From: Glandiceps talaboti | Taxonomy: Eukaryota; Hemichordata; Enteropneusta; Spengelidae | DNA length: 64,000 nucleotides | Assembly: GCF_964340395.1 (NCBI RefSeq) | Contig: NC_135553.1 | Location: 26,414,449 to 26,478,448 of the forward strand | Direction: 5' to 3' | Shown here: positions 46,062 through 64,000 of the stretch, piece after piece | How the letters are laid out: every line of letters starts with the position of its first letter | How positions within the stretch are numbered: position 1 is the stretch's first letter | The notes under the pieces: model-generated | Seen by the model: only the letters and a program-made list of their open reading frames with translations | What the model was told of the DNA's origin: nothing | Databases searched by the model: none | Translations under genes and position numbers: made by a program

Positions 46062-46518
46062 TATATTTGGACCTATTTGACATTTCAGGCTAATATCCTC
46101 TAGAGTAGATTTATTTTGTTATTGCTCACTACAAGTCATTGCATGCATGTAGTTTGTAGGGAGCCATGATACATTTGCAATCATTGTAAATAATGTACAT
46201 TGTCAATGAACTCTTTATTACCACCAATTAATTCTAATAGTACTTGGTTATATCTAATTTCACATCAACTTAATTTTGTCTTTTTTCCATTTGATATGTT
46301 GTATTGTGTTTATTAATTAAAATTATAATTTTGTAAATTAGATACTGAAGTAATTACCACCAAATGTGTCAAATGTGTCAAATCATTTGCAAAGGAATGC
46401 TTCATTTCTTTATTGTGACTGAAAATAAACTACAGACTACATCATAATGATTTGTATAAAGTGTTTTTTCATCTTTTGAAAGGATGTGAAATACCAGGGT
46501 TTGAATGAATGTGAAATA

Positions 46519-48791
46519 CTGATGAACTGTGAAATACAGATATGTCCAGTTTTGGTGATACAATGTGATGAACAGTGAAATACAGTGGTGTCCAGTGTTG
46601 GTGATACAATGTGATGAACAGTGAAATACAGATATGTCCAGTGTTGGTGATACAATATGATGAACAGTGAAATACAGTGGTGTCCAGTGTTGGTGATACA
46701 ATGTGATGAACAGTGAAATACAGTGGTGTCCAGTGTTGGTGATACAATGTGATGAACAGTGAAATACAGTGGTGTCCAGTGTTGGTGATACAATGTGATG
46801 AACAGTGAAATACAGTGGTGTCCAGTGTTGTTGATACAATGTGATGAACAGTGAAATACATATGTGTCCAGTGTTGGTGATACAATGTGATGAACAGTGA
46901 AATACAGTGATGTCCAGTGTTGTTGATACAATGTGATGAACAGTGAAATACAGATATGTCCAGTGTTGGTGATACAATGTGATGAACAGTGAAATACATA
47001 TGTGTCCAGTGTTGGTGATACAATGTGATGAACAGTGAAATACAGATATGTCCAGTGTTGGTGATATAATGTGATGAACAGTGAAATACAGTGGTGTCCA
47101 GTGTTGGTGATACAATGTGATGAACAGTGAAATACAGATATGTCCAGTGTTGGTGATACAATATGATGAACAGTGAAATACAGTGGTGTCCAGTGTTGGT
47201 GATATAATGTGATGAACAGTGAAATACAGATATGTCCAGTGTTGGTGATACAATATGATGAACAGTGAAATACAGTGGTGTCCAGTGTTGTTGATACAAT
47301 GTGATGAACAGTGAAATGCATATGTGTCCAGTGTTGGTGATACAATGTGATGAACAGTGAAATACAGGTGTGTCCAGTGTTGTTGATACAATGTGATGAA
47401 CAGTGAAATACAGATATGTCCAGTGTTGGTGATACAATATGATGAACAGTGAAATACAGTGGTGTCCAGTGTTGGTGATACAATGTGATGAACAGTGAAA
47501 TACAGTGGTGTCCAGTGTTGGTGATACAATATGATGAACAGTGAAATACAGATATGTCCAGTGTTGTTGATATAATGTGATGAACAGTGAAATACAGTGG
47601 TGTCCAGTGTTGGTGATACAATGTGATGAACAGTGAAATACATATGTGTCCAGTGTTGGTGATACAATGTGATGAACAGTGAAATACAGTGGTGTCCAGT
47701 GTTGGTGATATAATGTGATGAACAGTGAAATACAGTGATGTCCAGTGTTGGTGATACAATATGATGAACAGTGAAATACAGTGGTGTCCAGTGTTGGTGA
47801 TATAATGTGATGAACAGTGAAATACAGTGGTGTCCAGTGTTGGTGATACAATGTGATGAACAGTGAAATACATATGTGTCCAGTGTTGTTGATACAATGT
47901 GATGAACAGTGAAATACAGTGGTGTCCAGTGTTGGTGATACAATGTGATGAACAGTGAAATACATATGTGTCCAGTGTTGGTGATACAATGTGATGAACA
48001 GTGAAATACAGTGGTGTCCAGTGTTGGTGATATAATGTGATGAACAGTGAAATACAGTGGTGTCCAGTGTTGGTGATACAATGTGATGAACAGTGAAATA
48101 CAGTGGTGTCCAGTGTTGGTGATATAATGTGATGAACAGTGAAATACAGTGGTGTCCAGTGTTGGTGATACAATGTGATGAACAGTGAAATACAGTGGTG
48201 TCCAGTGTTGTTGATACAATGTGATGAACAGTGAAATACAGTGGTGTCCAGTGTTGGTGATACAATATGATGAACAGTGAAATACAGTGATGTCCAGTGT
48301 TGTTGATACAATGTGATGAACAGTGAAATACAGTGATGTCCAGTGTTGTTGATACAATGTGATGAACAGTGAAATACATATGTGTCCAGTGTTGGTGATA
48401 CAATATGATGAACAGTGAAATACAGTGATGTCCAGTGTTGTTGATATAATGTGATGAACAGTGAAATACAGTGATGTCCAGTGTTGGTGATACAATGTGA
48501 TGAACAGTGAAATACATATGTGTCCAGTGTTGGTGATATAATGTGATGAACAGTGAAATACAGTGGTGTCCAGTGTTGGTGATATAATGTGATGAACAGT
48601 GAAATACAGTGGTGTCCAGTGTTGGTGATACAATGTGATGAACAGTGAAATACAGATGTGTCCAGTGTTGGTGATACAATGTGATGAACAGTGAAATACA
48701 GATGTGTCCAGTGTTGGTGATACAATGTGATGAACAGTGAAATACAGATGTGTCCAGTGTTGGTGATACAATGTGATGAACAGTGAAATAC
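46519..48791. repeat. 46-bp minisatellite, about 49 copies
   Basis: Unit gtgatgaacagtgaaataca followed by gtggtgtccagtgttggtga and tacaat. Variation is limited to gtggtg/gatatg/tatgtg/gtgatg and ttggtg/ttgttg, acaatg/acaata/ataatg. Because 46 is not a multiple of three and the unit has no stop on the - strand, all three - strand frames stay open over about 2.3 kb (46402-48771, 46437-48725, 46469-48820). Confidence 0.98.
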
Positions 48792-48827
48792 CAGTTTTTT
48801 ACCATTGTATTAATTGCCATATTTCAG

Positions 48828-50334: not shown

Positions 50335-51808
<1,474 letters not shown>

Positions 51809-51834
51809 AGAGTAACATATATGTATAATGTCAT

Positions 51835-52760
51835 AGCACTAGATATTTATACATGGAGAGTAAAATTGACCATTTCAACAAAAGTAATCCTAGGGAGAAG
51901 TCGTTTGCCTTACGTTTGCCAAATTGTTCACTTTACATACCTACCATATATCTTATATATATGTACGGCTTATGGGTTCAATGTTGTCATTGTTTGTTGA
52001 GACTGACTTACAGATGATGATTATGTCTCCATGTTTAGGGAGCGAGCAGAATTTACGTCGTGCGGGCCTGGGGAGAAAATGGAGGGGGTCATGAAAATAA
52101 TTGGGGTGCAAAGGGTGCTCTTTGAAAATTCTGATGGTCTGAATGGGAGGTCACGAAACATTTTGCTCATGATTTAAACCAAATTTAACCCCCGGAGCAG
52201 TCGTTTACCAAGAACATTTGAAACATGTCTTTCTGCTACGCCACAATACGTTCGGGTCACAGGCTGTCAACCTATCTTGAATTATGGTGAGCTGGGTGAC
52301 AAGAGAATGTGCGTGTTCGTGTAGTGTATTGAAGACAATATTCAAATATTCTATGACTTTCAACCATGTGTATAGTTTGAAATTTTGAATAAGGAGTAAG
52401 GTGCTCAGAATATATGTATTCGTGGTAATACCATGGGAACCAGTAAGGTGGTTGCCATGGCGCTGACGTCTAAACAAGTTTTATGAGTTTCATGAACCAA
52501 AGTGTGCGTAACTAACAGAGAGAAGTACGCGATTATGTAAATACAATCACTTTTGTTAAAATCTGCCCTCTGTATGCACCGGGAAGTATATATGAATATA
52601 AACGTAACTCCATGGGCTGTGCTGTTTATTGTCCAGTGTTTCCAAATGTCACAATACCTTGCATAGCTATAGTCAGTTACATTAGTCTCACGACTCGTAT
52701 ATCGAAGTACTTGCCATATATACGTATGAGAACGCTGGACGTCTGGATTATGACAACACG
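51835..52760. other. Intergenic, upstream of the receptor gene
   Basis: I see no gene or repeat. The last 200 bp probably contain the promoter and 5' UTR of the receptor gene, but no core element is convincing. Confidence 0.4.
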
Positions 52761-55700
52761 ATGGCCGAATTTCATTCTGTCGTGTTCGTGTTGTTTCTAA
52801 CATTGACAATTCAGGTAAGTCGGTTCAAATTACAAATGCCTCTCAACAAGATATAGCGGACTAAAAGACAAAAAAGAATAATGTTCACAACATGAGTGGT
52901 ACCCTACCCTGTCTGATATGTGCAACTTGGTTAGGTTCGATCACTGTATTGCAGAGAGGAGGAAGTTAAATTTTCTGTTTTCAATCTAAGTGGTTGTTAC
53001 TCTACAGAGAAACAGTTAGTTTGACTATTTACATGTAACTGGGAAGTAGCCACGAGTGTGACGTGAATGGAAATGTTGTTTATGAACTGTAACTGAAAGC
53101 AGGTTCTATTAAAGTGGAGTCCATAACACAAGGAAACATTCATTTGTAGATATAAATATTTTCATTTGATCATGGTATAAACATAGACATTGGATCAATG
53201 TTTATGTATAGATAACATGTCCTTTTTGTACATTTTTAACTTTCAGGGGCAGGGCGGAGGATTTTCGGTGTGGGCATAACATGTTCCCAACAAAAAGGAG
53301 GACGGGTGGGGGGGGGGGCATCTAAAATATGATTACTGGAAATTAAATGAGGTGTAATTCTGTCAATTCTCAACAAGCATTGCGTCGAGTACGTGGAACT
53401 AAAGATTCACTATTTCTGTCATCATGTGATTCACTTTCACATTCTGAACTGTCGCTTGTCAGTGCCATTGTCACTGCCACTATCAATAATTCCGAAATGA
53501 CTGTCTGTGTCATTGTTGATGTCAGTAGCGTCACTGCCACTATCAATAATTCCGAAATGACTGTCTGTGTCATTGTTGATGTCAGTAGCGTCACTGGCAC
53601 TATCAATGATTCCGAAATGACTGTCTGTGTCATTGTTGATGTCAGTAGTGCCACTGGCACTACCCGTGTATTCTTTGTTATCTGTTGTGGAGTAATTTTT
53701 CTTGAAATAGTTGCTAGAGTTATTTGTTTGTGTGCAATCAGTTTGTGATTACACTGAGTGGTGATATTACATGTGTAAGTGTCTTAGCTAAAGGATTTTG
53801 AGATTTCATTGACCTAATGTCGTAAATTAATCTGTACTCAGTCTGCTTGGAGTTAGAGATGTGCCCTGGCTATTGACATTACGTTGACCTCAACCCATGT
53901 AGTTATTGCGGTATCGACACAGGAATTAGGGATGATGTGTTGTCAGCAGATAGGCAACCACTATCCTATGTCTATTTGCTAGATTGAATGTGGGTATGGA
54001 TGTCAGATGGTTATTAATAATGTACAGATGGTTAGTCTGACGTCATTGCGATTTACAGATGTTTTATACATTTCGTGTGGAAGGGGATGCAAAAGACAAT
54101 ATATTTTAGGGGATAGGTATTTTACATATTTTAGCAGGGGTTCACCGAAAAAAATACACCTCATGATAAAAAAGCCCCCCCCCCCTCTCCAAGAGTTACA
54201 AATGTACACACCCTTTGAATATTTTTCCCCCAATATTTTTATATTACAGATATTACAAAATCAGGCATCGATCCCAAATGTCACTTGCTATTCGACATGT
54301 CAAACGTGTTATGGTCCATCACCAGAGAGCTGTTATGAGTGTGTTTCATATCGCCATGGTAACACTTGTGTGAGTGAATGCCCAGATAACACATTTCCTT
54401 CACAAACACAGTCAGTTTCACCTGAGACACCAGTCACCACCATCCAAGCTCTTTACCCTCCAGTAAACGACTCTCTACCCAACGGAGGTGTAAACAAAAC
54501 TTACGAGGATAAAGTTAATAACACTGTCGAGGATGGAATTGACAGTTCCTTCCCCTTGAGCCCAGCGATTTGCCATGATTGCCATATAGAATGTTTGGGA
54601 GGTTGTAATGGCAATATGTCTTCGAACTGCTATCGCTGTAAAAATGTCATTTTCCACGGACAATGTATGAGTAGTTGTCCGGAGAATATTTCCTACCTCG
54701 ACAAAGAATATCCGTATATATGCCGACAATGCCATGACCAATGCACGGGAGGATGTACCGGTGAGACCTCAGATGATTGTATTCGGTGCAAAAATCTAAA
54801 AACTATTGATGGCAGTTGCGTCGATTCATGTCCCATGAATTACTTTGAAAAGGTCAGCATGTGTTTTCCTTGCCACGAAGCATGTATAGGTTGTCATGGT
54901 ATTTCTAATGCCGACTGTAAGGGATGTAAGGAAGTGAAATACAACAATACATGCATGAACGAGTGTCCTGTACGTACTCAAAAGGATGAACAAAATGTTT
55001 GCATGGACGAAACAGAACCAACGGCAAACACCAGTTTAGGAGTTGATGATGGAAATAAGCGTGGAGAAGGGTTTGGCGATCGGTTCAGGTAAGTTGGATT
55101 CTTTATTTCACAACCTGTGTGTACACATTTGCCGCCAATATAAGATAGAGTCAACAGTCAATATAACAAGTAAAAGTGAAGTAAAACACTTTCTCTATTG
55201 TGCTACACTCGTATAATATCATTTCAAGTCGTCAATTAGCAAATGAAACAGTATACTTTTTACACTTGATATGGATGCTATAAATGATTGTGGTACAGAA
55301 AACGCTTTACTTTCAAATTGGTGTTATGGGTTGTACAATACGATACAATACAATACAATAATAATACCATAAATACAAGACATCACAATACAATACAACA
55401 CAATACCATAGCATAGCATAGCATACAATACAATACAAGGTGATGCGATGCGATGCGACACAACACGACATATTTTATTACTCTCACAGGGAGAAGCTAC
55501 GTCTGGTTTAAAATCTACAAAAACTACAAGCATAGTATAAAAATAAAGAGTACTTTAGGTAACATAGTGAACAATTTAAAATAAGACACACATACACTGA
55601 CAGAAATTTAAAAAACAACATTTAAAGTAAAAACAGACTCTTAATCTACCTAATCGTCCATTAAAATTGGTTACAGCTCATGGGGATAAAAGAATATTTA

Positions 55701-58700
55701 AAACCTTGTTGATGACACATTGGAAGACAAAACCTTACATGTACATGACACTCTAGTCTACCAGAGTGTAAACTTCTCAAGTCCCACTAATCAAATCATT
55801 ATATGTGGGTTTTTTAATTTATTTATTTATTTATTTATTTATTTATTTGTTTATTTATTTTATTAATTAATTTGTTACTTTGTTAGTTTAGTTATCTATT
55901 TCTAAAACTTATATTATCAGGTTGCCCTAAGGTTCGGAAAATAACAAAAAGTATAGAATTTACCCAACTTTCATCTGCCAACCCTCTCATCTGTAACATT
56001 CCTACATACAGGCATACACTACATATTTAGAAAACGGTTTAGTTTCTTTGTAATATTGGGACGTCTTGGGGGAAAACCAACGAGAGACTTACGCAAAAAG
56101 TTAGCCAGACAATTAAGTCCGTCACGTGAACGTTTCATTGTTAGATAACAAAGGACTAATCACTACGTTTGTAAAAAGGTTCGATGTGCAGTAACCCGAG
56201 TCGGCAAGTCGTATTGTCAGATGGTCACATGGTCATATAATCACAAAGAGAGGATAATTCTGGACTTTCCGAAAACCCATACTGGTAACGTAATACTGAG
56301 AAAAAACCCAGACCCTCCGCAATGATTGATATCTGTTTCACACAGTAGGTAACATAATACGCCATGTAAGATGACGTCAGGCATACCTAGTTCCTCGTAC
56401 GTACGCGTAAGCGGAACTGAGCAAATGAAATGTCAGCAACTTCGTCCACGGAAGCTGAATCACAGTCATTCTACCACCATACTTCGTCCAAACATAGTGG
56501 TGACCATGGTGACAGACCAATGTCAAGCTTTGTAGCACAGAGGACAGAAAAAAACACGTGCGAAGATTTACAGATTTCTACTACTTTTATGTCCAACAAA
56601 GATGATACAATAAATGACCACTTTAATGTATTCCCAATGCTTGTCTTTATAACTGTTATCAGCTAATTCCCATGTCTTGTCGTGTCTTGTCGTGTCTTGT
56701 CTTGTCTTGTCTTGTCTTGTCTTGTCTCTTTAAATTCAATATAATTTGATACATACATTGATGATATTCAGTACTGTAGCCTGCGGGGGGGGGGGGGGGG
56801 CAGCTGCCCCCTGATATTTTGGAAAAAAGAAAGAAAAAAAGCTACTTTTTGAATACATAGCGATGCTATTAAAATCGTTATTTACGTGACGATTCCTAGC
56901 ATGCGCGATTTCAATGGATAGTTCACTAAAGTGACTGTACACTGACTCATGGCTAATATGTATCTTATATATATCGCTATTGTACGCTGGCTTAACTTTG
57001 AATTAAAATGTGTCCAGTTAAAATTGTAATATTTTGCAGCAAATTAAAAATTCTTTGCGCGGGAAAGTACAAAAGAAGTGCGCACATGCACTGTGCATTT
57101 TCTGCGAGTAACAGTAGTCTTGAAAGTCTCCTTCATTTGAAGATAGCAAGTCGCAATTATAATGTCAGCAAGTGAAACTCAAAAAAAAAAGACGGAAAAA
57201 GCCGTTCAACGTGAGGTTGCCTGCTGTGCTGCATGCAGTGACTCGTGACTCCGCAGATGCGCTCGATCTCATTTACATCTTGTTCCTTATATTAAAACAT
57301 TTCATGCTGATAAAACGGCAGATCTCTGATTATTTGGTGGCCCTGAAAAACTATTAAACTAGGTACGCAGTTTAAGATCCACTATTTGAAGATCTTTCTT
57401 TCAATAATTGTGTTCGACGTTGTCTTTGGTTAAAATGTTGTTTGATATGATTATCTCATTGCACACTGACACTAGCGTTATTCCGCAATTCATTTTGAAG
57501 CGACAATTTGCTATGGAAAGAATGGCCCTGAATTTGTAAACAGAGCTGTACCTTCGACATCAAAATCCAAACTTCGATTTCCATTATAATGATAATGACA
57601 AGGAGAATTCACTGAGTTCACCTTGGGTTCCGACATAAAATTAACGAGGCCATAACAGTTTTGGAAGTTGGGTAAAGAAAATGATTATTTTGTTGTGTTA
57701 CTTATTTGAGAAAGCACCATCATTTTTACTACTTTGAATGTGACATCATTTCGGCAACTACTTTGAAAGATACGACATTAGGCCAGAAAAAAAATGAAAA
57801 AGCTGTTCAACCTACCCATATATGTTTTTCTGGTGATTGGCAATATATCCTCAATATATTCGCATTTTTTTTTCAAAATTAAGGATATTTCTTTATATTT
57901 TCTGAATAGTACATGTAACAATATACATTTGAGTCTATTCCAAATTATATAATATCTTATACAGTGGTTTACTTGGCTCTGATGTTACATACAAGCATGA
58001 ATTGAGATTAAATATCAAATGTGCACTAAAAAGAATTGAACAAAAGTTGACCATTGGGCCATCAAAAGTCTGAAAGTCTTGAAATGTTTTGCTCTTTATT
58101 CGGGATTTTTTGGAACCAAATTAAACTTCAGGAGAAGTCATTTACCATGTGCACATCCGCATAATATCTTTCAGCTTTGCCACAACAAAATACACTTCCA
58201 GATATTATGTAATACATAGCATAATTGTTTCAATTCTGGTATTTTATTATGTCTATGGTTTGATATTTTATCCCTCTGAATGGCCTCCTACACTGTCTTA
58301 TTTTTGGAGTTGTCTCCTTCCAATGCATCATTGTACCATATGATTTCATATCTCCACTGTAGTGTAGGTGACAGAAGGGGTGGCTAAAATAATGCTTGAG
58401 TTTCAATTGGCCTGGCTTAACATTTTTTGAGAAGAGAGGGTGCGAGGAACTACACCACTTGTTTAACCGTAAATTGTGTACATTTCCTAACTGTAGCCAT
58501 GCAGACAAATTGCATGAGATAGTATCAAGATGACTGAATAAGTTCTGTCTAAACTCGACCTGAAATATTTTACAGTCATTATATATGGTTTGTTTTATCC
58601 TTGTCAAGCATTGTGAAAAAATGAAATAGACCTACTTACCCAATGTGATGGCTTAGGTTACCCGTTGACAAGCATTTTTCATTTTTTTCTGACTTTACAT

Positions 58701-61700
58701 ATGATATTTAATTGCGTATGCTAAAATATATATTATGTAAACTACATGCAAATTTATGTAAATTAGCACTTTTCTAAATTTTAAATGCATGATTGCACAA
58801 AGACAAAGTTCTGCCCCCCTTGGCAAATTGGTCAGGCTACGGCCCTGATATTAAACAAGGTCCATGTGTGATGTTAATTGATAATGTACATGTAGCTTTA
58901 GTTTTAATGACTCATTTGTATAATTAACGATTTTCAGTAATTATTAGGCTATATCTTAAGAATACACTCTTCAAATTTATTATAATTTGGTATATACTTT
59001 GGTATATATTTCAAACATAACATCGCAGTGATGTCCTGAAAAGCTTACTGATGTAGCTTTTACTTTTATTAAGCCATTTGCATAATCAATTATTTTCGGT
59101 AATTAGGCTGTATTTTAAGAATGAGCACTTCAAATTTCATATGCATCAATATTGAATTGAAATTTATTCCACCAGAAAATGAAAACAAAATATACATTCT
59201 CTGAAAGTAATACAAAACAGAATTCTGATGAGGGCCATGGATCTAGTTCCTGAGGAACTAATCAAAGTCCATGGATCAAACGGTCATGAAAATTAAGGCT
59301 TATTTTGGGTACGAGATATAACAACAAAAATACATCTCATGTGAATAGTGATAGAGATTATGTCGATGGAAAATTTATATCATTATACAGAAACTCTCTT
59401 GGTATAGCAAATGAATAAAAAGCATGCATACAAAAATGAAATTGTATGTCATCTCCTCAACAAATACTAATTCCAGGTTTTCATAGCGTTTGGAATAAGT
59501 AGGTTATCATTAATGTTAGCTCTGGTCGGAAAGCTTACTGATTCAAATGTATTGTAATCAGTCATTTGTATGATTAATTATTTGAGAATACAAGCTTCAA
59601 GTTCCATATAATTTGGAGCACACATGATGATAAGAAAATGTATGTTTCCTATAAAGCTGGAGTATTCATTTGCATAATAAGTTTTGGTAATTTCTTTTAC
59701 AAATATTCAGATTTCTTATAGTTTGGCATAACTATTTTCCAATTAAGGGGTGCATCATGTATGATAGCTATAGCTAAGAATTTTGCATTCCAACAATTAT
59801 TGATGAGAGTAGGAACGAAAATCTAAAGACTTTGCCCTTACAGAAGGCATTCAATTTAAATCTGGTTTATTCTTGTAGGTCAACACTGATTATTCTCGTC
59901 GTTCTTCTGATTGTTGCATTGGTCACCATAGCAACTATCCTGGCGTTTGTTTTCAAGAAGAAATTGAGAAAGGTGAGGATAACGAATTGTTGGTTTCTAT
60001 TCAAATTTATAATCTGTGTTAGGGTTAATGGAGTATCAGAGTACATGTATGTTAACATTTATACTGGTCTGAGATGCAATATAACATTCAACTATTCGTA
60101 TATACGTCATCAATGGAAAGATGTTTTATTACACCCACTTGACCCATGGAGCAAATTAGTCCAGATATTATGTTTTCTTTAACTATATTCGTCTGTTCTA
60201 TGACCCTGTGACCAGTGTATTGAGTTTAATGGTCACAAAAACATGGTGCGCTTTGTTTTAACAATTGTCGAAGAAATAGTGTCACAGTGTGAACGTTTAC
60301 TCATGAGTAGATACAGTGATATGACATAAAAGAGTGAAAATCATTTCCTGCTTTACCTCAGAAATTTCGGCAATTGTATGGATGGACCACAGGCACAATA
60401 CAAGATACGGACAATAGTAATAACTCAGACCTGCAAGAAGGTGGGATGGCAAATGAGACATTTGAAATGGACATGGAATGTACAAAGAAAAATGTCAATG
60501 ATTCCCAAGTCAACAAAGAAAAGGTATTATGCACATGTTGTATCAGTGCTTGTGTAACAATCAAAATATTCACTAGCAGCAGCATGTTAAAATGGAACCA
60601 GTAATCTCGCAAGATTCCCGACAAAAGTTAGCACTCAAATTCCGTAAAATAAAATAATTTGTATATTCAACCATTACAAACTGTAAAAAAAAAAATTGGG
60701 ATGTCAGGGTGTAGTAACATGTAATTAATCTCTGTTAATTATAGGTTCATGTTTTCGATGAAACAGAAGCCCAAGTTGGTGATTTGGATAAACGTAACAA
60801 AGATTCACTCGTTGACGTCACGAACACATCCCAAGATGATGCTAAATCTCCGTCTGAGGTCTCTATCCCTGAAGTCCTGCACCCTTGGGTAGGTGGTACT
60901 ATATGTGATGCAGCAACTGGAGGGGCTGCATCGGATGACATCAGTAGAGTCGTATTGAGAGAAAGAACACAACGCCATCCAAACAGAAATACCTGTCGAT
61001 CTATCTCTGATGTGTTAGAAAGGAAGAGACCCAGTCTTGAGGAGTGTAACAGTGGACAAGAAATGCCAAGAGGCAGAAAATCAAGAAACAGAAGAGATTT
61101 GTTTGGAAAAGATGAACCAGTGATGTCCGAATATATCGAAGACGATGGTGATGGAATATGCATGGGTGCAGGGAGATCTTACAGTGGTACATTTCCACGT
61201 GAACAGTCTGGAAAACGGGCCATTTCCAACAGAGCTTCCGAGAACTTTGATAGTGGTTATTTTACCAATGCCAGTAGCATGTCAAGCATAAACAGGAAAA
61301 GTTCTCTCCTAACTGATATCATGCCAACCATGGAGGAGGTTGAATATAGTGACAATAAGAACAATGAATTCACAGCTGATAGCAGCCAGAATATAAACCC
61401 AAACTATGTTACTATGTGTTCAGAAGAACACTCCGAAGAGGAGGGTCTAGTAAACAAAGTGAGTGGACAACCTGAAGGGAGTCATGTTTACTGTGACATT
61501 GACGACAAACAGAGGTGCCGCTCTGTAAATGAACCCTACTATCCATATGAAAGATGTTTCGCTCCTTTAAGCTGGAAACTGAATTCCATTGATCACTGGG
61601 AACAGTACAAACTTTTACACCCTCAAAGTTTGCTGCGTGGTAGTTTCTCATACCAAACGAATGACTTTGTTGTCAGCAGTTTTGACAAATATGGGGGTCA

Positions 61701-62370
61701 TCTTCTACATCCAAAGCATAAAGTCAACCTGTACATTCCACCGGATGCCATCCCCAGTGATCAGAAATGGGAAATTTACATGCATATATCATTTACAGAT
61801 GATGAGACTGAAGACACTGTACTTAGTCCAACCATTACGTGTGGACCAAATCGTCAGTTTCAAGAGCATATCATCCTTTCATTTCCTCACTGTGCTGCAG
61901 ATATACACAACTGGGATATGAACATGGCTTGCACACAAACCACTGTTAAAGAAACTCCAAACTGGGAGATTCTATCAGATGGACCAAGCGCTGCATCAAA
62001 CATGTGGATCTCTGGAGAGTTTTGCTACTTATCCATCAAACACTTCACTGGCTTTCGTCTGATAGGTCGTCGCCGTCAAGGAACTGGTTCAGGAGACCAG
62101 GAAAGTCACCGAGGACGACAGGGAACTGGTGAACACGGCCAAGCCCGTTCACGAAGACGTTTCTGGTCTTTAGTTCCTAGAGGTGGGGGGAACACTGAAC
62201 ATCGTGATGCATCAACAGATGTCGGCCTGGATAGCAGAACCCAAATTTGTGTACAGTGTTGTTGTCCAATGCAAAGACGACGGAAACTCATCATGCTATT
62301 CAAACAGATCAAACCGAATGAAATACACCTCAGAGTGTATATATTGGACAACATAGAATCATTGAGACAG
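52761..62370 (+). CDS. Furin-repeat / ZU5-UPA single-pass receptor, 5 exons, 3' end outside window
   Basis: Predicted cell-surface signalling receptor. Exons: 52761-52814 (ATG, 18-residue signal peptide core MAEFHSVVFVLFLTLTIQ), 54250-55088, 59879-59972, 60362-60523, 60745-62370; all splice sites are GT-AG and phases agree, giving 925 codons so far. Residues 19-297 hold four furin-like Cys-rich repeats (CYSTCQTC, CHDCHIEC, CRQCHDQC, CFPCHEAC starts) with many N-glycosylation sequons. Residues about 300-323 are a transmembrane helix followed by KKKLRK. The tail is long, acidic and Ser-rich, with NPNYVTM at 601-607. A ZU5 domain follows at about 696-820 (IPPDAIPSDQ, LSPTITCGP, HFTGFRLIG), then the start of a UPA domain (EIHLRVYILDN). 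The last exon ends CAG|GTGAGA, so coding continues downstream. ZU5-UPA is usually followed by a Death domain, as in UNC5. Without splicing the frame would stop at 62466. Confidence 0.85.
53461..53665. repeat. 60-bp repeat, about three copies, receptor intron 1
   Basis: Three near-identical units containing aattccgaaatgactgtctg and cattgttgatgtcagtag. A multiple of three keeps frames open on both strands, but nothing else suggests coding. Confidence 0.9.
55335..55465. repeat. CAATA/CATAG/GATGC pentamer repeats, receptor intron 2
   Basis: A run of imperfect 5-bp repeats (aatac, gcata, gatgc). A TTTA repeat lies at about 55815-55865 and a CTTGT repeat at about 56672-56727. Confidence 0.9.
56769..58847. 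mobile_element. About 2.1-kb hAT-like non-autonomous element
   Basis: The left end is cagtactgtagcctgcgggg and then a G-run with cagctgcccc. The right end, read on the - strand, is CAGGGCCGTAGCCTGACC and then GGGGGGCAG. Such 'CAG...GTAGCC...GGGGGGCAG' ends are typical of a widespread group of animal hAT transposons. ATATT flanks both ends (an incomplete target duplication). Inside are CpG-rich sequence and only short frames, so no transposase is made. It lies in receptor intron 2. Confidence 0.65.
58860..59720. repeat. AT-rich dispersed repeat family, block 1
   Basis: Degenerate copies of a module containing taatgactcatttgtataat, gattttcagtaattattagg, ctatatcttaagaat and cacttcaaatttc-atataatttggtacatac. 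The same module recurs in 62770-63340 and 63840-64000. Confidence 0.65.
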
Positions 62371-62689
62371 GTGAGACAGAAGGTGTTGCAAATAATCCTC
62401 CTTATGAATCTGACCTTTGAAATTGTTTATAAACAAATTAGAATTCAGGTATCGCAGAACAAATAGTACATCATAAGAATCTTCATCAGCAACTTTTCTC
62501 TCCCCCCCCCCCGTAAGGGGAGGTTACTGTAAACCTGGACATTTACACTAAAGACTTATTTTCGCTTATTTCGCTGGAAAACAAAAACGTAAAAATAAGT
62601 AGTGACTAAAATGCCTTCTTGTACATGAACACAATGTACCAGTCTTGTAATTAGTAAAAATTAGTATGTTATGTCCGTCTGTGTGTCCG

Positions 62690-62744
<55 letters not shown>

Positions 62745-63537
62745 GGACACGATATTTCAAAAACTACTGCATCGATGCTAATGAAACTTATTACATGTCT
62801 TCCATATGCTAATCACAAGAACTGATTAGATTTTGGTAAACATCCAATGATTAATCATTTGCATAATTATTTTTTTTGTAATTAGGCTATATCGTAAGAA
62901 TGAACACTCAATTTCAACATAAATTGGTACATGCATTAACAAAGCGCATGTTGTATATAGTTTGTTGATGAGGCGTATGGTTTTAATGAATAATTGGCAT
63001 AATTAATGATTTGTAGTAATTATGCAATATCTTAAGAATGCACACTTCAAATCCACAACATTTGTTACATACATCTAGTTGACCAAATTTTTAGTTTTAA
63101 TGAGTAATTTGAACAATTAATGATTTTCAGTAATTAACCCATATCTAAAAGCACACTTTACATTGCACAACTTTGGTACATACATCAACCATAATAAGCA
63201 CACATGTCTTATAAAGTTTGTTGGCATAATATTTAGTTTTAATGAGAATTTGCATAATTAATGATATTTGGTAATTAAGCTATTATATCTTAAGAATGCA
63301 CACTTCAAATTTCATTTAACATGGTACATACATCAACCACAACAAATCACACGTGTATGATGTAATTTCATTGTGATGTTTAATTTGCCTAACTTGCATG
63401 GGGGGGGGGGGCATTCAGTTTAAATCTGGTATTTGCACATCCTGTTGTCTTCCTAAATAAATAAATTTAGATTTGTCACTTTTACCTTCCGTAAGGGACG
63501 GTCATAGGGATGGGATATGTGTCTGTGTCTGTGTCCG

Positions 63538-63568
<31 letters not shown>

Positions 63569-63611
63569 GTCTGCATGTGTCTGTGTCTGTATCTGTGTCT
63601 GTGTCAGTTTC

Positions 63612-63684
<73 letters not shown>

Positions 63685-64000
63685 GGTGAGTAAGGGACGA
63701 AGTTTCACCTTTGACTTAATTTACCCACGGTGATATCTCCACTGGGGCTGTAGACAATCAAAAGTTGTATTGTGTCTTGTAGTACCCCTGGACAGAGATG
63801 GTGGTTAGGTGGGTCACAGTTAGGGTAAAGGTGGGTAAAGTAGACTGTTTCTTAGTGATAGGCTATATCTGAAGAGTGTAACCTTCAACATTAATATAAT
63901 TTGGTACATACATTCATGATACCAGGGCGCACGTGTCTAATAAAGCTTGTTGGTGTAACTGTTACTTTTAATGACTCATGTGCATAATAAAGAACTTTCA
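62371..64000. repeat. Receptor intron: GTCT microsatellites and AT-rich repeat family, block 2
   Basis: No further exon recognised. (GTCT)n lies at about 62690-62745 and 63537-63682. Between and after them are three to four degenerate modules of the AT-rich family also seen at 58860-59720. Each block follows a 'tgtctgtctg' run, so the microsatellite is probably part of the element. The strings ccgtaaggggaggt (62512) and ccgtaagggacggt (63489) precede both runs. Confidence 0.7.

Follow-up and report, generated by a model that had tools for sequence, protein, structure and literature searches.

The DNA analysed here is a 64 kb stretch (the window) of the plus strand of the 590 Mb assembly of Glandiceps talaboti, an acorn worm (enteropneust hemichordate), G000:C6:26414449-26478448. 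At its 3' end lies a gene of eight exons on the plus strand with an open frame of 1205 aa. In order, this gene (here called the FU-ZU5 gene) encodes a predicted signal peptide, four furin-like (FU) repeats, a transmembrane (TM) helix, a long linker, a ZU5 domain, a UPA domain and a Death domain. All internal borders are GT-AG and the exon phases are compatible. A public G. talaboti protein, P0001 (LOC144435577 isoform X2), is identical to the product of this gene from exon 2 onward. Related sequences are P0002 of Ptychodera flava (1158 aa, 39% identity over the alignment) and a second G. talaboti copy on contig C2 (19.663-19.674 Mb; the C2 paralogue). The parts of the gene, in window positions, are as follows.

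52761..52814 (+): exon 1 (predicted), MAEFHSVVFVLFLTLTIQ, signal peptide; donor GTAAGT, phase 0
53347..53388 (+): alternative first exon, that of P0001, MRCNSVNSQQALRR, without a signal peptide
54250..55088 (+): exon 2, ectodomain with four FU repeats (Pfam); phase 2 donor; identical to P0001
54286-54384, 54571-54681, 54721-54834 and 54862-54969 (+, approximate, borders by eye): FU repeats within exon 2
59879..59972 (+): exon 3, TM helix LIILVVLLIVALVTIATILAFVF and then KKKLRKK (hydropathy); 94 bases, as in the C2 paralogue
60362..60523 (+): exon 4, linker on the cytoplasmic side; the C2 paralogue gave no clear counterpart
60745..62370 (+): exon 5, linker, ZU5, spacer and first UPA strands (Pfam ZU5 63.0 bits, AlphaFold2)
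about 61675-61926 (+): Pfam match to ZU5 in exon 5
64258-64407, 65126-65392 and 65851-66276 (+, the last ending at the stop codon): exons 6-8, 3' of the window in the adjoining 10 kb of the contig

A preliminary description of this DNA had assigned the five exons in the window to a single gene, and had looked for a Death domain beyond position 64000 and for an ortholog in related animals; these expectations were borne out. The borders, the identity with P0001 and comparison with the related sequences confirm, at the level of sequence, that the five exons and the three beyond the window belong to one gene. P0002 has the identical layout, with FU, ZU5 and Death in a single protein and a hydrophobic stretch separating FU from ZU5. 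The exons of the C2 paralogue measure 827 (FU), 94 (TM), 1542 (ZU5), 150, 267 and 426 bases; for the TM exon and the last three these lengths match the window gene, and the phases agree for all six exons found in this search, which covered the FU exon onward. Its FU and ZU5 exceed the Pfam cut-offs, and it is absent from the protein database matches. Alternatively, two adjacent genes, one for an FU protein and one for a ZU5-Death protein, could have been fused by prediction: intron 2 is 4.8 kb long, and the name of P0001 marks it as a computed gene model. However, the TM exon joins both parts in frame, the order and exon lengths are repeated at C2, P. flava has one protein, and only 2 of the 46 ZU5 exon matches in the G. 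talaboti genome have a Furin-like match within 500 kb, both being these genes. As P0001, P0002 and the C2 paralogue all have FU followed by ZU5, the two-gene artefact was rejected, and we consider it extremely improbable.

A genome search with the signal and FU exons gave seven matches, the other five at E 1.5e-9 to 1.9e-4. Among the matches of three protein searches (which returned 2, 4 and 8 proteins, reached close relatives and in one case scored the 7994 candidates sharing most words), P0001 and P0002 were the only proteins with both FU and ZU5 by Pfam; their NCBI names carry no function. The length given previously for intron 2 was accurate. The transposon said to lie within it was not confirmed, as the intron sequence gave no match at E 1e-10 within 237 kb of the G. 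talaboti genome, although one may be present.

Exon 1 is only a prediction because P0001 begins with the other first exon, and the N-terminus of P0001 could be that of the main product. In such an isoform X2, without a signal peptide, the FU repeats would not be extracellular, or the TM helix would act as an internal signal anchor. This is very unlikely in our view: the predicted signal exon is in frame and has a good donor, the N-terminus of P0002 is also hydrophobic (judged by eye), and P0002 and the C2 paralogue retain every one of the 32 ectodomain cysteines of P0001, which suggests an oxidising space. Repeats were observed in the introns of the gene. Three copies of a unit with 60-base spacing occupy 53470-53662 in intron 1, directly downstream of the alternative first exon, and an A+T-rich dispersed repeat at 58914-59135 (intron 2) recurs several times in intron 5 (62942-63974).

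The FU and ZU5 matches are far beyond chance. Furin-like (PF00757) scored 83.3 bits in four stretches (Pfam cut-off 26.8), in agreement with the four repeats described previously, GF_recep_IV (PF14843) scored 61.5 bits (cut-off 29.5) and ZU5 exceeded its cut-off of 21 threefold in exon 5 (63.0 bits). Of the ZU5 and start of UPA reported previously, ZU5 was thus upheld and UPA proved weak: PF17217 scored 15.4 bits in P0001 (cut-off 27) and was unlisted for P0002, while UPA-FIIND, in the expected position, was below its cut-off of 27 in P0001 (15.7), P0002 (19.5) and the C2 paralogue (16.9). The Death domain scored 20.4 bits in P0001, just below the cut-off of 22.6, 29.0 in P0002 and 14.9 in the C2 paralogue; over about 126 residues, the Death exon of the window gene shares 51% identity with P0002 (E 1.8e-32). 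Hydropathy analysis gave one strong hydrophobic helix separating FU from ZU5, plus the N-terminal one. The single TM helix with its trailing KKKLRKK fits a type I membrane protein, which would be located at the cell surface. A whole-protein AlphaFold2 model of P0002 (three rows) had a pLDDT of 32 and was set aside.

The PDB chains nearest to the FU part are EGFR and ErbB4 (phmmer E down to 3.5e-11). The preliminary description had proposed growth-factor-like binding by the ectodomain, and this is unsupported for want of receptor L domains: at E up to 1, Pfam gave only FU-type matches in the ectodomain and no match to receptor L domain, kinase, Ig or TSP1 in the protein. In EGFR and the insulin receptor, the ligand is contacted by the L domains. 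The FU-ZU5 protein resembles EGFR, ErbB and insulin receptors in its cysteine-rich FU repeats and differs from them in giving no match to L domains or kinase.

PMC9596381 describes UNC5 as having a single TM with cytoplasmic ZU5-UPA-Death. The FU-ZU5 protein shares this arrangement with UNC5A-D, and the PDB chain nearest to its ZU5 part by sequence, as well as by fold, is UNC5B. It differs from UNC5 in its ectodomain (FU rather than Ig and TSP) and in having about 70 residues between ZU5 and UPA. UNC5CL (ZUD), a TM-ZU5-UPA-Death membrane protein that is not a netrin receptor, has no ectodomain; in general plan it is similar to the FU-ZU5 protein, which differs in possessing one.

The tail had been called UNC5-type, as though the gene were an UNC5 with a new ectodomain, and this was not supported. 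A canonical G. talaboti UNC5 is present on contig C24 (14.855-14.878 Mb), where a tblastn search of 80 kb with the insect UNC5 P0003 found, in order, UNC5 N-terminal and Ig regions, two WSxW stretches, ZU5, UPA and Death; the WSxW stretches were read as TSP1 by eye, and Pfam lists no TSP1 for P0003. In the C24 gene the ZU5 fold is split over exons, with the last strands and a cleavage-like site in the following exon, whereas in the FU-ZU5 genes it sits whole in one exon. A ZU5 tree was built from 36 rows of 47 stretches (10 under 110 residues, including the acorn-worm UNC5, were excluded, as was P0001, which duplicates the window-gene row). In this tree the three FU-ZU5 proteins group together as a clade of their own (99/99) whose sister is not resolved, and their placement relative to the single UNC5 row (P0003) is not resolved. 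Based on this clade and the exon-split ZU5 of the genome's own UNC5, a simple UNC5 ectodomain swap was rejected; FU-ZU5 and UNC5 may have a deep common origin, with which the tree is compatible.

The ZU5 domain of the window gene contains a candidate autoproteolysis site.

62041..62049 (+): HFT, proposed cut F|T, between the last two ZU5 strands (alignment, model)

HFT is common to all three FU-ZU5 proteins and, by alignment and predicted fold, is at the autocleavage position of CARD8, NLRP1 and PIDD. In an alignment profile of 21 rows selected for carrying HF[ST], it aligns with Gln-Leu-Gly of UNC5B (3g5b), the Leu of which is Leu-677 as counted from the alignment. Passages of PMC3210808 equate UNC5B Leu-677 with CARD8 Phe-296 at the cut, give HF|S or SF|S as autocleavage motifs, name Ser-1213 as the NLRP1 nucleophile and place ZU5-UPA before the death-fold domain in PIDD, CARD8 and NLRP1. 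HFT fits the pattern [HS]F|[ST] preceding the final ZU5 strand, with Thr in place of the Ser of those three proteins. In an AlphaFold2 model of 61585-62115 (pLDDT 79), H153-F154-T155 lies at the turn that joins strand 146-153 to strand 156-163, and several PDB chains that we read as cleaved fragments stop at this turn. For example, the alignment of the model to NLRP1 (6x6a_B) ends at residue 154, corresponding to NLRP1 1212, and that to GPR56 (5kvm) ends at 382, adjoining T383. Human GPR56 becomes cleavage-deficient when T383 is changed. The alignment to 8oek, a chain titled uncleaved, runs on to 164. The GAIN domain of adhesion G protein-coupled receptors is extracellular and belongs to receptors with seven TM helices. 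With HFT at this position in both sequence and predicted fold, self-cleavage between ZU5 and UPA is plausible.

Two observations weigh against cleavage. Some fold rows pass the cut site, and the acorn-worm UNC5 (L052, on C24) has RFS where the FU gene has HFT and UNC5B 3g5b has QLG. The same receptor could instead keep its ZU5 uncut and, as in UNC5B, work through the opening of a closed ZU5-UPA-Death unit, with HFT as a folding motif only. The best Foldseek match of the ZU5 model is indeed UNC5B 3g5b (E 3.4e-8), HF[ST] is frequent among the ZU5s of the G. talaboti genome, HF also occurs in ZO-1, and the RFS of the acorn worm's own UNC5 agrees with such a role. Conversely, the Gln-Leu-Gly of UNC5B contains neither F nor a nucleophile, while H, F and T are retained in all three FU-ZU5 proteins. 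We regard an uncut ZU5 as possible, if on the unlikely side.

The reading that we favour, and think probable, is that of an acorn-worm single-pass receptor with FU outside and linker-ZU5-UPA-Death inside, the ZU5 cutting itself at HF|T and the receptor being held closed and then released. First, ZU5 would cut itself once folded. Second, the membrane part (FU-TM-linker-ZU5) would keep the UPA-Death fragment non-covalently, closed and silent. Third, UPA-Death would be set free when the ectodomain changes or the membrane-side fragment is lost. Fourth, the freed UPA-Death would recruit Death-domain partners. The sequences show the structure of the gene, its domains, the ortholog, the paralogue and the place of HFT; surface location, self-cleavage, release, a signalling output and a ligand are what we infer for such a receptor. 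PMC9213247 describes CARD8 halves that remain joined after the cut, loss of the N-terminal half freeing the active half. For TRADD-N proteins, which form an expanded family in marine invertebrates including hemichordates, ZU5/FIIND self-cleavage has been predicted (PMC8195603); for this reason an immune role is no less conceivable than a developmental one.

Two short motifs stand out in the linker.

60997..61020 (+): RSISDVLE, kept in P. flava; RSISGVLE in the C2 paralogue; surrounding linker diverged
61249..61266 (+): DSGYFT; DSGYYT in P. flava, DSGYLS in the C2 paralogue

The second, DSGY[FYL][TS], fits the beta-TrCP degron pattern. When each of the three linkers was shuffled 5000 times, this DSG pattern appeared by chance in 298, 316 and 419 cases (6-8%), and it occurs in 6 of the 21 ZU5 exons with at least 100 residues before ZU5, both FU genes included. 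Therefore, only its aligned conservation in the three proteins favours the motif.

The two G. talaboti copies are mosaics in their similarity to each other.

61589..64000 (+): tract unusually alike in the C2 paralogue (blastn, fourfold sites), window part; extends to about 66284, just beyond the stop codon

Identical fourfold sites number 26/55 in the FU exon, 2/4 in the TM exon and 11/24 in exon 5 before 61589, as against 70/81 in exon 5 from 61589 on and 6/11, 17/19 and 37/41 in the three last exons. By NG86, synonymous divergence (dS) is 1.40 for FU, 1.06 for the linker, 0.09 for ZU5, 0.24 for the spacer and 0.64, 0.19 and 0.20 for the last three exons; nonsynonymous divergence (dN) is 0.34 for FU, 0.67 for the linker and 0.07 for ZU5. 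Intron 6 is 71% and intron 7 76% identical between the copies (one shuffled control, for intron 7, gave 44%), and the 3' flank 43%. Intron 5 (1887 versus 339 bases) is 56% identical, with blastn matching only its first 118 and last 19 bases. Because the similarity jumps just before ZU5 and includes introns, gene conversion between these two large contigs, rather than protein selection alone, is probably responsible for the likeness from ZU5 to the stop codon; a recent transfer of the 3' half would give the identical picture. The lower fourfold identity of the first UPA exon (few sites) suggests a patchy tract.

These features could be combined in a "functional degradation" mechanism like that of CARD8 and NLRP1, in which, after the self-cut at HF|T, the membrane-side fragment would be marked (perhaps at DSGY[FYL][TS]) and removed, releasing UPA-Death. 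Gene conversion would keep the output uniform while FU diverges, giving several inputs and one output. We consider this more specific proposal doubtful.

PIDD1, NLRP1 and CARD8 are cytosolic. They resemble the FU-ZU5 protein in having HF|S or SF|S at the HFT position and ZU5-UPA before a death-fold domain, and the FU-ZU5 protein differs from them in its TM helix, its FU repeats and its Thr for Ser. From the sequences, the gene builds a known signalling module into a new domain architecture, so far in two acorn-worm species. The architecture was not met in the literature searched (open papers, longer listings covered in part). Within the open papers, no match was obtained for UNC5CL with ZU5 and autoproteolysis, for ZU5 with "furin-like repeats" or for hemichordate with UNC5 and death domain, and the match for ZU5 with furin-like and death domain concerned UNC5 and a convertase site rather than this architecture; the match for the G. 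talaboti genome was a paper on amylase. The well-known ZU5-UPA proteins fall into two classes, the receptors for guidance (UNC5) and the self-cleaving sensors of the cytosol (PIDD, NLRP1, CARD8). If the favoured model is true, a surface receptor with repeats of the growth-factor-receptor type and a self-cleaving ZU5 would bridge both classes. The mosaic pair suggests a route by which one death-fold output is kept while the outer receptor parts drift, in a genome with at least 46 ZU5 exon matches.

These 46 are a lower bound and are matches, not genes. At least 24 of them have a Death exon within 25 kb (the Death places being 26 of 150 listed, picked by eye). An apparently intronless family member (L006:730-3012) is a single 761-aa open frame with ZU5, UPA and Death above the Pfam cut-offs. 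Two near-identical ZU5 exons, at G000:C9:21974990+ and 21978260- (L020 and L021), lie in opposite orientation about 3 kb apart and, judged from sequence, are a recent inverted duplication.

An Rfam scan of the window gave no match at gathering scores. Upstream of the FU-ZU5 gene are the following features.

50338-51846 (-): open frame of 503 aa carrying YRDD and a KVYIGLTENNFKQRYANHKQ stretch; by eye, a Penelope-like retroelement that includes a GIY-YIG part; nothing in Pfam at E up to 0.001
46405-48823 (-): minisatellite, a tandem array of 2.4 kb in which every minus frame (all three) is open; its units code HCITNTGHICISLFIT...
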